This document shows, piece after piece, positions 18,013-22,936 of a stretch of 22,936 nucleotides of DNA; the stretch's first letter is position 1; each line of letters begins with the position of its first letter. The stretch comes from Candidatus Micrarchaeum sp. (GTDB taxonomy: Archaea > SpSt-1190 > DYHY01), in the NCBI GenBank assembly GCA_020723935.1, contig DYHY01000005.1:24160-47095 (forward strand), given 5' to 3'. Under the pieces are notes generated by a model. The model ran no database searches. It was not told where the DNA came from and saw only the letters and a program-made list of their open reading frames with translations. The position numbers and the translations under genes are program-made.

Positions 18013-18022
18013 CTATTAAAAC
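18013..18022 (+). promoter_or_regulatory. TATA box for the giant GH25 protein
   Basis: CTATTAAAAC, centred 28-29 bases before ATG 18046, consistent with leaderless transcription from a promoter of its own. Confidence 0.6.
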
Positions 18023-18045: not shown

Positions 18046-21000
18046 ATGGCTAAAAACCGGGCTCTTTTCGTAGGACTAGTCGCCGTCATAGTTGCTGTGT
18101 TTTTCGCGTTCGCCGTATCGGCTGGCTTTTCCGCCGCCGACTGCGGCCCCGTCTCCGACCCGGCAGTCCTCGCGAAGCTCAACGACGCGGACAACTGGCA
18201 CTGCACCTGCAACGACGTTCCCGGGTGGCAGACCTGCCGGGTGTCGCCGACGACCTGCTTCTGGAGCCCCTACTACGCGTCAGGCACGGACCACAACTGC
18301 AAATATTCCATATACGGCTATCCCCCTTACAACTCAAATCCGCAAGGCGCCACCGGAGTGTGCGGCACCACCGGCACCGGCGATTACTGCGTGTGCACCG
18401 GCAACTATCCGGGCGACCTCGGATGCGCCGTGACCAGCAGCACGTCATGCGCCTGGCAGTCGACCGTCCCCGCGGCGGGCTCGCAGTACAGCTCCCAATA
18501 CAGCCACCTATGCGGGACGAGGAACGGGGCGGCCGTCCCGTACAGCGTCCCGACGTCCTGCCCAGCCGGCTGCAACACGAGCGTGCCCAGCCACCTTACG
18601 AACAACAAGAAATGCCTCTGCATCGTGAGCGGAACAGCTGAGAACTGCATGTGGTCTGCCTCGACGCCCGCTTCCGACCAGCGCGACAGGACCCCGCTTT
18701 GCATAGACCCCCAGGCGAGCACCGTGACCGGGGTGGGATACGTCCCGACGGGCGTCTTCTGCCCATCCAGGACATGCGCCGGCTGCGAATGCTGCGTCAA
18801 CGCCCAGTGCATGGGCGGCCCCGCCTGCACCCAGTTCGCCGAATCCCACTGCGCCGTCCCGCCCTACGGGCAGGGACGGTATTGCACCAGCGGGACGACG
18901 TGCGCGGGCGGGACGACCGCCGCCGGAGGAGCCGGACAGTCCTGCCGGCCGCAGGGATCCGCGGGCGGGCAGTGCAACGCCGGATACACCTGCGTCGGGA
19001 CCCTGTGCATAGCGACCGCACAAGTCCCGTCTAACGCGATACAATGCACTCTCGCCGGGCGGAAATGCCTGGCCGGGACCGTGACAAGCTATCCGGGATA
19101 CATGAATGCCGGGACTTGCGTCTACAGCGCGACGACCGCGGGCGCCCCCATCCTTGGCAACTGCTGGCGGGTCGCGGGGAGCGTCTCGTGCCTGGACGCC
19201 GGAGGGGAATGCGACGGATCCTGCCCCGCCGGCACCGCGCACTATCCCTCGCACGAAGGCGCCACGACCTCGTGCCCGAGCGGCACCTGCTGTAAGGTTT
19301 CCAGCAGCATAGCGAACCCGGACGGCCAATGCCCTTGCTCGTCCTACGAGCTGGGGAAGCAGTGCATCTGCTTCAAGTGCATGTCCCGGCAGACCTGGGG
19401 GAACAACAGGTGGGGCTGCAGATGGGCGAACGATGTCAGCGCGTACTGGGACTATGCCTCCGACCACTGGAGCGCCGGAACCGTCTGCCACGACGAGGTT
19501 AGCGGGGGATTTGTCACGACCGCATGCGGCACGAGCCTCTCTTGGGAGGCCCGCCCCGAGTGCGCCATCCAGACAATACCCAACACCTGCATCGGCGCCA
19601 CGCCGAACACGGCCAACTGCCCCGCGAGCGCAGGCAGCCCGCTCACGCCCACGCAGGCCAGATGCTTCTCAACGTCCTGCCAGACTGGCTGGGCGCTTGC
19701 CAATTCCCCCTCTGGAGGGATCCCCTACAACCAGCATTTCACCGGCTGGTCCACCGTCAACTGCGTCAGCGGCGGGCCCGCCCCGAACAGGAACTGGAGC
19801 TGTTGTGTCCCCAACTCCGCCCTGGACCGCGCGGGAGCCAACACTTGTGAGACTTCCCCGTCCGCAGGCGCGACGAGGAAGTGCGTCCCTAGCGGCGGCT
19901 GTACCGCGTCCGGCTGGCAGGTTGAGACCGCCGGCGACGCGAGCACCAGGTCCTGCGACACGGCCCAGATATGCTGCAAGTCCCCGTGCGGCGTGAAGAA
20001 CGGCGTCTGCCAGGTGAACACGATCTCCACGGCTCCCGATGCCTCCCACGGAATGAGGAACAACACCGTCGCCTGCCCGATCTCCAACTACATCTGCTGG
20101 CTGCCAGGGACCGCCGCGGCGACCTGCACGAGCGCGGCGAACCAGGAATGCATCACAAAATCCTCCCCGGACAACACCCGCTTCTGCGGGGCGACAATCG
20201 GCGACTACCAGGGATGGGCGATCGTGACTGGAGGGACGAATTCCTGCTCCTCAACCACGCAGGACTGCTGCGCCTCGCCGTGCAAGAACGGCGGCGGGAA
20301 GACCCGCGTGTGCGCCGCATCCAACCCCGGCGGCTACACCGAGGCGACCGCCACAGCCCTCGGCGTGACGAAGGCGTGCCCCGGGACGATGAGGTGCTGG
20401 GAGCAGTCGCACGGGGCGGCCGGCACGGGCCACTGCGCGACATACTCCAGCGGCTCCAAGACTGTCGAGGGTTACTGCATAGCGGGCACAAGCTGTCCGG
20501 TCGGAGGGACCGGCATGGCCGACTATGAACCCACCCACCCCGACTCTAGCGAGTGCAGGCGGAACGGCGGACGGTGCTGCAAGGTGCGTGTGGCGGCCTG
20601 CCCCGGGATATGCAGCACGAGCTGCGCCACCTCAAGCGTCGTGGCAGAGGACGCCTCGCAGGGCCCCACTTGCGACCAGAATTTCCCGGGCACCGGCGCC
20701 AGGTGCTGCAACGCGCCGGCGGCCGGCTCGTACACATGCCTAACTAACTCTCCTGCGGGGAGATGCGCAGCTTCGGCCCCCGCCGGCTATTCGGTGCAGA
20801 GGTCGGACCTCACGTGCCCCGAGGGCCAGGGCGGATGCTGGCTCCCCGACGGCTCGCCCACTGCCCCCGGCGGAGGGAGCGGGCCCACGACGGGGAACTG
20901 CCTGAAGGATGCTTGCGGCGGGGCGGCGATAGTGAAAGGGATGGACATCTCATACTGGCAGAGCACTATCGACTGGCAGGCCGTGGCGGGGAGCGACATC

Positions 21001-22936
21001 AAGTTCGCGTTCATACGGGCGAGCGTCTCGACCGTCGGGACGATGAGGGCGGACACCGAGTTCGCGAGGAACTGGGCGGAGGCCAAGAGGAACGGGATCC
21101 TACGGGGAGCATACCATTTCTTCAGGGCGGACAAGAACGCCGCGGACCAGGCGAACCTCTTCGTCTCCCAGCTCGGGAGCGACTACGGCGAGCTCCCGCC
21201 CGTGATAGACGTCGAGATCGACGAGATCAGCCCCTACAGCGCCGACAGAGACACCTGGATCCGCGGCATAGCGACGTGGATGAGCATAGTCGAGCAGCAG
21301 ACGGGCAAGAAGCCGATGATATACACGAGCCCCGGCATGTGGTCCGCCATCAACACGGACAGGTTCAAGGACTATCCACTTTGGATAGCCAACTGGGAGG
21401 TAAACTGCCCACGCATCCCGTCCGCCTGGGACGCCTGGTTGTTCTGGCAGAGCTGTGGGATGTGCGAGGGCGCGCCCGGGGTCCGGGGGAAGGTGGACAT
21501 AGACGCATTCAACGGGAACTTGGACCAGCTCAGGGCCCTGTCGCAGGGCGGATCTTACTCGCCCCCGACGATGCCCGGCCCCTCGGGCGGGTGCGGGACG
21601 CCCTCTCCTCCGGGCCCGGCCCCGCCGGTGACGACGACCACCGCGCCGGCGGGAAGCGACGCGCCCGTCACGCTGAACATGACCCTCCTCTCCTGCACGA
21701 ACGTCGCCTCGGGATGCAACGTCCAGTTTGACGCCTCGTCCACCAAGGGCTACACCTACATAGGCCTCGAGGTCACAAAGCCGGACAACTCGAAGATAGA
21801 CGAGAAGGACAAGGGCGAGGTGAGGCCAAAGGTAGGCGAGAACTACTACTGGAGATGGGCGGCGCCCGCGCTCCCCGACATGCGCATAAGCGCGCCCGGC
21901 AAGTACGTCCTGACATTCTTCAAGGAGCACACGATATCGGTCTCCAGCGCCGAATGCACCGTGACCGCGCCAAACACCGTGACGTGCTCGGGCGCGGGCT
22001 CGAACAAGTGCCCGTCCGAGAACGGCTTCGAGAGGAGATGCGTCACGCAGTCCGAGGCGCAGACCCTCCAGGGCCAGGGCTGGGCTGAGGACGACCTCCT
22101 CCTGTGCACCAACGACGACAGCTGCTGCACGACGGACAAGCCAATATGCATGGTGAAGCTCTCCAACCAGACGAACTCGTGCAAGTCCGAGGGCGTGACC
22201 ATCCGCCGCTGCGCCGCATCCGGCCAAAGCCCGGGCGCGGAATGGAGAGCGGACACTTCCCTCTCCTGCAGCAACTCCAATACCTGCTGCCCCGACAAGG
22301 GCTTGTGCTGGGCGAAGAGGCTCGGGATACTGGTCGGGGCCGGCGCCGAAATATACCGGCACGCGACCCTCCAGAACCGGGCCCTCGTCAACTTCACAGG
22401 CCTCGTCTCCAACTACACGGGGACGATCAGCGCCTTCAAGTTCGTCGTCAACGGGACTGAGATGGGCAGCACCAAGGTCTCCGACGTGCCGACGCCAGTC
22501 AGGAACGCGACTTTCGTCTCCGGGCCAAAGGAATACGCGCGCGCGACGACCTTCACGTACTATGGCAAGGCCGTGACGGAGGACGGAAACTTCACGACGC
22601 AGAACTACACGCTCGCGATACCCAACCTGACGATCAAGGCGGTCAACCTGACGGTCGGCGCGACCTTCGCGAGCCTGGGCGGCGGCGCCTACAACATAAC
22701 CCTCACAGCGGCGAGGAACGACACGCCGGCGGCGGGGGAGGTGGTCCGCTTCTACCTGGACTCGACTCTCAAGGGCGATGACTTCTCTATGCCCTACTCC
22801 CTGACGGTCGGGCCGTTCCAGGGTGGGACGACGCATTCCTACCAGGCGAAGCTCGTGACCGCGGACGGAAACTTCACGACACAGAACTACACGCTCGCGA
22901 TACCCAACCTGACGATCAAGGCGGTCAACCTGACGG
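18046..22936 (+). CDS. Giant secreted Cys-rich protein with GH25 muramidase domain (partial, open at the 3' end)
   Basis: At least 1630 codons without a stop; the C-terminus lies beyond the window. A signal peptide (about 1-27, ALFVGLVAVIVAVFFAFAVS) is followed by a long Cys-, Thr-, Ser- and Gly-rich region (about 30-960). Part of it is a loose repeat of disulfide-rich modules ending in CC. A glycoside hydrolase family 25 domain (about 963-1166) follows: GMDISYW, KFAFIRASVS, GILRGAYHFFRA, PPVIDVEID, TGKKPMIYTSP, YPLWIANW and VDIDAFNG. The acidic residues expected for GH25 are present (Asp967, Asp1055, Glu1057, Asp1151). A Pro/Thr linker (about 1171-1200), a beta-sandwich-like segment, two more Cys-rich modules (1322-1421) and N-glycosylation-sequon-rich repeats complete the visible part. 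By family it would cut the muramic acid-containing glycan of bacterial walls. Archaea lack that polymer, so the target is probably foreign. Anchor and export fate are unseen. Confidence 0.85.
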   Translation, partial: MAKNRALFVGLVAVIVAVFFAFAVSAGFSAADCGPVSDPAVLAKLNDADNWHCTCNDVPGWQTCRVSPTTCFWSPYYASGTDHNCKYSIYGYPPYNSNPQGATGVCGTTGTGDYCVCTGNYPGDLGCAVTSSTSCAWQSTVPAAGSQYSSQYSHLCGTRNGAAVPYSVPTSCPAGCNTSVPSHLTNNKKCLCIVSGTAENCMWSASTPASDQRDRTPLCIDPQASTVTGVGYVPTGVFCPSRTCAGCECCVNAQCMGGPACTQFAESHCAVPPYGQGRYCTSGTTCAGGTTAAGGAGQSCRPQGSAGGQCNAGYTCVGTLCIATAQVPSNAIQCTLAGRKCLAGTVTSYPGYMNAGTCVYSATTAGAPILGNCWRVAGSVSCLDAGGECDGSCPAGTAHYPSHEGATTSCPSGTCCKVSSSIANPDGQCPCSSYELGKQCICFKCMSRQTWGNNRWGCRWANDVSAYWDYASDHWSAGTVCHDEVSGGFVTTACGTSLSWEARPECAIQTIPNTCIGATPNTANCPASAGSPLTPTQARCFSTSCQTGWALANSPSGGIPYNQHFTGWSTVNCVSGGPAPNRNWSCCVPNSALDRAGANTCETSPSAGATRKCVPSGGCTASGWQVETAGDASTRSCDTAQICCKSPCGVKNGVCQVNTISTAPDASHGMRNNTVACPISNYICWLPGTAAATCTSAANQECITKSSPDNTRFCGATIGDYQGWAIVTGGTNSCSSTTQDCCASPCKNGGGKTRVCAASNPGGYTEATATALGVTKACPGTMRCWEQSHGAAGTGHCATYSSGSKTVEGYCIAGTSCPVGGTGMADYEPTHPDSSECRRNGGRCCKVRVAACPGICSTSCATSSVVAEDASQGPTCDQNFPGTGARCCNAPAAGSYTCLTNSPAGRCAASAPAGYSVQRSDLTCPEGQGGCWLPDGSPTAPGGGSGPTTGNCLKDACGGAAIVKGMDISYWQSTIDWQAVAGSDIKFAFIRASVSTVGTMRADTEFARNWAEAKRNGILRGAYHFFRADKNAADQANLFVSQLGSDYGELPPVIDVEIDEISPYSADRDTWIRGIATWMSIVEQQTGKKPMIYTSPGMWSAINTDRFKDYPLWIANWEVNCPRIPSAWDAWLFWQSCGMCEGAPGVRGKVDIDAFNGNLDQLRALSQGGSYSPPTMPGPSGGCGTPSPPGPAPPVTTTTAPAGSDAPVTLNMTLLSCTNVASGCNVQFDASSTKGYTYIGLEVTKPDNSKIDEKDKGEVRPKVGENYYWRWAAPALPDMRISAPGKYVLTFFKEHTISVSSAECTVTAPNTVTCSGAGSNKCPSENGFERRCVTQSEAQTLQGQGWAEDDLLLCTNDDSCCTTDKPICMVKLSNQTNSCKSEGVTIRRCAASGQSPGAEWRADTSLSCSNSNTCCPDKGLCWAKRLGILVGAGAEIYRHATLQNRALVNFTGLVSNYTGTISAFKFVVNGTEMGSTKVSDVPTPVRNATFVSGPKEYARATTFTYYGKAVTEDGNFTTQNYTLAIPNLTIKAVNLTVGATFASLGGGAYNITLTAARNDTPAAGEVVRFYLDSTLKGDDFSMPYSLTVGPFQGGTTHSYQAKLVTADGNFTTQNYTLAIPNLTIKAVNLT
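19189..20856 (+). repeat. Degenerate Cys-rich modules before the GH25 domain
   Basis: Protein-level repeats within the giant gene with the plan C-x(2-12)-C-x(13-25)-C-x(4-8)-CC-x(2-5)-[C]. Clear copies begin at 19189 (CLDAGGECDGSCPAG ... CPSGTCCKV), 19846 (ending DTAQICCKSPC), 20149 (ending TTQDCCASPC), 20476 (ending RNGGRCCKV), 20599 (ending GTGARCCN) and 20737 (ending EGQGGCW, one Cys of the pair replaced). DNA identity between copies is low, so they are old duplications. Confidence 0.65.
20932..21543 (+). other. GH25 lysozyme-type domain inside the giant protein
   Basis: Residues 963-1166. Starts VKGMDISYW and ends FNGNLDQLRALSQ, the usual boundaries of GH25 barrels of about 200 residues. 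The DxE pair Asp1055/Glu1057 sits at the end of a beta strand (PPVIDVE), and Asp967 and Asp1151 occupy the two flanking positions seen in the Streptomyces enzyme Cellosyl. Four Cys in the YPLWIANWEVNC to CGMCEG stretch are atypical additions that match the Cys-rich surroundings. Confidence 0.88.
22009..22308 (+). repeat. Two Cys-rich modules after the GH25 domain
   Basis: Protein-level copies of the same plan as before the GH25 domain: 22009-22149 (CPSENGFERRC ... CTNDDSCCTTDKPIC) and 22180-22308 (CKSEGVTIRRC ... CSNSNTCCPDKGLC). They match each other more closely than the earlier modules do, sharing x-RRC, an acidic Trp segment and CC-x(4-5)-C. Confidence 0.7.
22582..22936 (+). repeat. Near-identical 94-residue beta-domain repeat running into the window end
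   Basis: Bases 22582-22654 recur at 22864-22936 with one mismatch in 73 (G22599/A22881), giving a 282-base (94-codon) period. The shared protein segment starts DGNFTTQNYTLAIPNLTIKA. Each unit resembles a CARDB/Ig-like domain with several N-x-T/S sequons. The second copy is cut by the end of the window, so copy number is unknown. Confidence 0.9.

Follow-up and report, generated by a model that had tools for sequence, protein, structure and literature searches.

The giant gene and its genomic setting

The window, i.e., the whole 22,936-nucleotide stretch of DNA that was analysed, ends on its right side within a gene for a giant, probably secreted protein (18046-22936, + strand), whose reading frame runs for at least 1,630 codons with no stop and is still open where the contig end cuts it. 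A TATA-like box, TATTAAAA (18014-18021, +), lies about 25-32 bases ahead of the ATG; it is the only copy in the window, where 0.03 copies are expected by chance, and the transcript is possibly leaderless. Inspection of the translation shows an N-terminus that is basic and then hydrophobic, resembling a Sec signal. MAKNRALFVGLVAVIVAVFFAFAVSAG (18046-18126, +) is accordingly listed as a probable signal peptide, and export is probably via Sec. On the opposite strand an open frame of 611 codons (21100-22935, −) runs against the GH25 domain and the tail, and is probably a shadow of the high GC3.

The protein has 116 Cys in the 1,630 residues encoded in the window. The 96 that precede the GH25 domain (before residue 962) form an N-terminal array (18127-20850, +). 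Its modules terminate in CC or CW, nine CC dipeptides being present in the 1,630 residues, and three repeated units, each made of a CC module and then a CW module, stand immediately N-terminal to the GH25 domain (19807-20850, +). Searches of the array against Pfam, PHROGs and PDB sequences returned no match, and a profile made from the CC modules of the window found nothing convincing at the other loci examined. The GH25 domain (20929-21552, +) is followed by a linker rich in Pro, Gly and Thr (21553-21657, +), by two more CC-type modules (22000-22305, +) and by sequon-rich, possibly Ig-like repeats (22318-22936, +) that are near-identical at the assembly break; one pair of 110 nt is 86% identical, and the protein has 19 N-x-S/T sites in all. 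The first-pass annotation had described a single frame of at least 1,630 codons with an archaeal-style TATA box, Cys-rich modules and beta-sandwich repeats. The frame, the box, the modules and the repeats all stand. The beta-sandwich fold is a tentative assignment, as the match of the tail to Big_7 is below the Pfam cut-off (in a paralogue it reaches 24.0 of the 24.1 bits needed) and a structure model of the tail alone is of low confidence (pLDDT 37) and uninformative.

The window sits between two 100-N runs on a scaffold of 56,349 bases (C27) in a source genome (G000) of 1.14 Mb that is 91% complete in 47 contigs; the small size is not in itself grounds for placing it in DPANN. Its right end is an assembly gap within a repeat of the giant gene. 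The C-terminus, for which the first-pass annotation had looked to a longer assembly, apparently lies past this gap on the same scaffold, where the repeat KGDDFSMPYSLTVGPFQGGTTHSYQAKLVTADGNFT recurs and a frame of 330 residues (G000:C27:47198-48190) runs to a stop at C27:48190. As the repeat sequence is common to both sides we infer that the gene is continuous across the gap; the reading frame is shifted across it because the gap length is arbitrary. Judged from the sequence, the protein would appear to have about 2,000 residues, with a repeat number, and hence an exact length, that the assembly does not fix. No membrane anchor was seen at the apparent C-terminus, and Pfam recognised no wall-binding domain in the giant protein, to which the apparent tail past the gap adds none.

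The scaffold is archaeal, as the first-pass annotation had supposed for the contig. It encodes an archaeal LonB (820 bits), PEPCase_arch (590 bits) and a non-discriminating AspRS, and argS, which lies in the window directly upstream of the giant gene, has its nearest relative in an archaeon of the same family (G001, 54%). The SSU rRNA of the source genome matches the archaeal model with 1,422 bits, a match that alone is not proof of the domain because the same model also matches bacteria, and a kinship grouping places the genome in one domain with a genome presumed to be that of Aciduliprofundum boonei. In G001 the genes that follow argS are unrelated to those found here. One contig of that genome starts with a truncated cysteine-rich secreted protein (L174, C22:1-390).

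The GH25 domain and its relatives

Residues 962-1169 make up the GH25 muramidase domain. A GH25 domain with the expected acidic residues had been claimed from the translation, and the claim holds. In the profile search PF01183 matches residues 966-1135 over profile positions 1-170 of 180 with a score of 130.5 bits (cut-off 27, E 1.2e-37). The best match among PDB sequences is 1jfx (E 7e-29), followed by other GH25 lysozymes. When residues 940-1172 were modelled with AlphaFold on the basis of 37 relatives, the pLDDT was 90.5 and the fold was the modified beta/alpha barrel of the GH25 type. The top matches of this model among solved structures are GH25 enzymes, with 1jfx at Z 29.8 and an rmsd of 1.7 A over 207 residues at 32% identity. 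Acidic residues occupy all four catalytic positions (D967, D1055, E1057, D1151). They show no variation across an alignment of 38 sequences and coincide with the catalytic residues of 1jfx, namely D9, D98, E100 and D198. The codon of D967 (20944-20946, +) corresponds to D9 and that of D1151, within VDIDAFNG, to D198 (21496-21498, +), while the codons of D1055-V-E1057 (21208-21216, +) encode the D-x-E motif that includes the general acid Glu. The predicted structure is thus that of a genuine GH25 fold with a complete active site, which speaks against the refuting outcome named in the first-pass annotation, a model in which the acidic residues form no GH25 cleft. The domain on its own is small and well modelled.

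GH25 domains are rare but recurrent in archaea. They were found in 6 of the 394 genomes around the source genome, 3 of 371 in the phylum of G336 (see below) and 6 of 352 in the order of G336, where the last figure includes one domain below the family cut-off and the three samples overlap. Nine phylum mates of the source genome had no GH25, and it is therefore not a core function. In a tree of 57 GH25 domains the domain in the window pairs with that of G336, an archaeon of another phylum (support 99/93, 50% identity). The remaining seven archaeal domains cluster elsewhere together with the one presumed to be from A. boonei. A single clade of all archaeal GH25s was rejected (p-AU 0.007), and a common origin with the Aciduliprofundum-type domains was tested and not recovered. 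The nearest bacterial domains are from Myxococcota (44-46% identity); a joint clade with these is absent from the best tree and was not rejected (p-AU 0.395). A bacterial source of the domain is probable, Myxococcota being the nearest of the bacteria sampled; it would have arrived independently of the Aciduliprofundum GH25 and later been fused to lineage-specific scaffolds. The paralogue beside the G336 protein has cysteine-rich modules where GH25 would be, and two further genomes (G449 and G781) also have GH25 on long mixed proteins. Together these point to GH25 as a possible exchangeable part on lineage-specific scaffolds.

Possible functions of the giant protein

GH25 enzymes cleave bacterial peptidoglycan, and archaea are without peptidoglycan. 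No Mur ligase was found in the 91%-complete source genome by a search that was positive in 12 of 14 control genomes, and the substrate is therefore most likely not the archaeon's own wall. There appears to be no sign of a murein or pseudomurein wall of its own, although the missing 9% or so of the genome could hide Mur ligases. Own-wall remodelling was rejected as an explanation on the absence of Mur ligase from the 91%-complete genome.

The reading that we consider probable on balance is that this is an archaeal giant secreted GH25 muramidase, placed between a disulfide-rich array and a repeat tail, that cuts the peptidoglycan of neighbouring bacteria. The protein would be exported, probably by Sec, and its cysteine-rich and repeat parts would either release it or hold it at the cell surface. 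The GH25 domain could then cut the MurNAc-beta-1,4-GlcNAc bond in the peptidoglycan of neighbouring bacteria, and such cutting of the wall would feed the archaeon, defend it or give it access. Secretion, activity and use against bacteria are what we infer here, and that use may be as a weapon, in predation or for host entry, with a competitor, prey, a partner or debris as the possible target. Points against this reading are the lack of a recognised wall-binding domain, the assembly gap that the gene crosses, the division of the assembly into 47 contigs, the absence of GH25 from the nine phylum mates, and the limits given above for the SSU rRNA match and for the missing part of the genome. It is also tempting to speculate, although this is on the doubtful side, that in several archaeal lineages with small genomes, unrelated to one another, GH25 was repeatedly placed as an exchangeable part on the lineage's own disulfide-rich surface scaffold, and that the protein is a tiny archaeon's surface device for opening walls when preying on or entering bacterial partners.

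A mainly nutritional role, in which the archaeon or its consortium digests dead bacterial wall and the scaffold binds particles or glycans, is unlikely but has several points in its favour. The genome is small, nutritive use has been proposed for the GH25 of A. boonei (PMC4241558), and Woesearchaeota with GH23 genes have been read as recyclers of microbial biomass as well as predators (PMC9723730). The present results, however, favour debris no more than live cells. A shade less probable still is a chiefly structural surface protein or adhesin, whose GH25 would be a glycan-binding module or act on an archaeal surface glycan. The richness in cysteines and N-x-S/T sites would suit such a protein, as would the surface-protein-like genes downstream, the paralogue that has the same tail without GH25 and the paralogue in G336 that has cysteine modules in its place; but the four catalytic acids are all present and do not vary, and pure binding would not need them.

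That the right end of the window is bacterial DNA misjoined to an archaeal contig, the outcome that would have overturned the first-pass annotation, is very improbable. The identity to bacterial GH25s and the ending of the gene at a scaffold gap could be taken to point that way, but no N occurs between argS and the GH25 domain in the window, and GC3 is uniform along the gene (0.83-0.91; 0.88 in the GH25 part as against 0.87 in argS). The closest GH25 overall is, moreover, archaeal (G336), and the tail has a homologue 4 kb along the same scaffold; outside this genome, the tail modules turned up in none of the genomes of the phylum that were examined. A chimeric join was rejected on the composition, the absence of N and the modules shared within the genome. 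A provirus or phage endolysin remnant is barely credible, for although PHROGs endolysin families match the GH25 domain, the neighbours are the housekeeping genes argG, argH and argS in place of holin or structural genes of a viral context, the giant secreted architecture is unlike that of an endolysin with its holin, and a viral origin of the GH25 was rejected since there is no close viral relative, the best viral contigs being just 36-39% identical.

Comparison with known systems and related surface proteins

Peptidoglycan hydrolases are already known from archaea. The GH25 of A. boonei kills Bacillaceae (PMC4241558; PMC12352652), as two Halogranum enzymes kill bacteria (PMC12352652). The A. 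boonei enzyme (UniProt B5ID12) resembles the protein described here in being an archaeal GH25 of bacterial origin, and differs from it in belonging to another part of the GH25 tree; the presumed A. boonei frame has 574 residues and two Cys and is without a cysteine-rich array. Woldo, Danwoldo and the other modular archaeal peptidoglycan hydrolases of a 2025 survey are likewise secreted and directed against the bacterial wall (PMC12352652), secretion being a prediction in the present case. To be counted in the survey, an enzyme needed a known wall-binding Pfam domain in addition to its catalytic domain, and those of the survey's enzymes that were shown to kill carry one (PMC12352652). The giant protein, with GH25 and a sub-threshold Big_7 match only, falls outside this definition, and having no known wall-binding domain it would therefore have been missed by the screen. 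As its scaffold is undetectable in this way, archaeal antibacterial enzymes may be undercounted.

Among solved structures Streptomyces coelicolor cellosyl (1jfx) shares the fold and the catalytic acids with the model predicted here, and differs in that its solved chain of 217 residues is the enzyme domain alone. The nearest bacterial domains, those of Myxococcota (L019, L022, L052, L071, L090; up to 46% identity), share with the domain described here two Cys, one within the NWxxxCPxxP segment and one immediately ahead of the domain. They lie in frames about 250-800 residues long that contain 2-21 Cys. The G336 protein (L106:7814-10567, −), which has the nearest GH25 domain found, is also long and Cys-containing with an N-terminal membrane segment and an adjoining paralogue, but its GH25 is C-terminal, its phylum is another, its scaffold is unrelated at this sensitivity, and the CC-module profile of the window gave no match there. 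The novelty that the first-pass annotation had seen is softened by the published archaeal hydrolases and by other archaeal GH25s, one of them on a comparable long Cys-containing protein. Two things are new, a subclade of archaeal GH25s apart from the others and a giant scaffold in which no wall-binding domain is recognised. The giant protein thereby adds a second archaeal GH25 lineage, common to two phyla, and enzymes against peptidoglycan in archaea that have none point to conflict with, or dependence on, bacteria.

The paralogue of the tail, which is without GH25, starts 4 kb downstream on the same scaffold (C27:51368-52300 and beyond) and shares the two CC-type modules of the tail. Homologues of the giant scaffold or its tail modules were absent from the other genomes of the phylum examined. 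Over its longer extent (G000:C27:51367-53424) the paralogue has in-frame stops and a change of frame, and is either a decayed gene or affected by assembly errors. Between it and the giant gene lies the gene of a Cys-containing secreted protein that has a membrane anchor at its C-terminus (G000:C27:48972-51306), beside more secreted genes, and the genes of this region form a surface-protein cluster.

In G336 two long paralogues adjoin each other (L106:7814-13008, −), of which one ends in GH25 and the other in cysteine-rich modules. Another archaeal protein (L113:3992-6775, +) has a Cys-rich N-terminus and a C-terminal GH25, the only domain that Pfam confirms; by eye, a stretch in its interior is lysozyme- or transglycosylase-like (LLAIAYKESG...GGVGIMQ). 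In two further archaeal proteins GH25 is fused to an NAGPA phosphodiester glycosidase domain (L115:1-2931, +) or is joined with an apparent von Willebrand A domain (DRSGSMG) in a protein whose C-terminus bears a membrane helix (L108).
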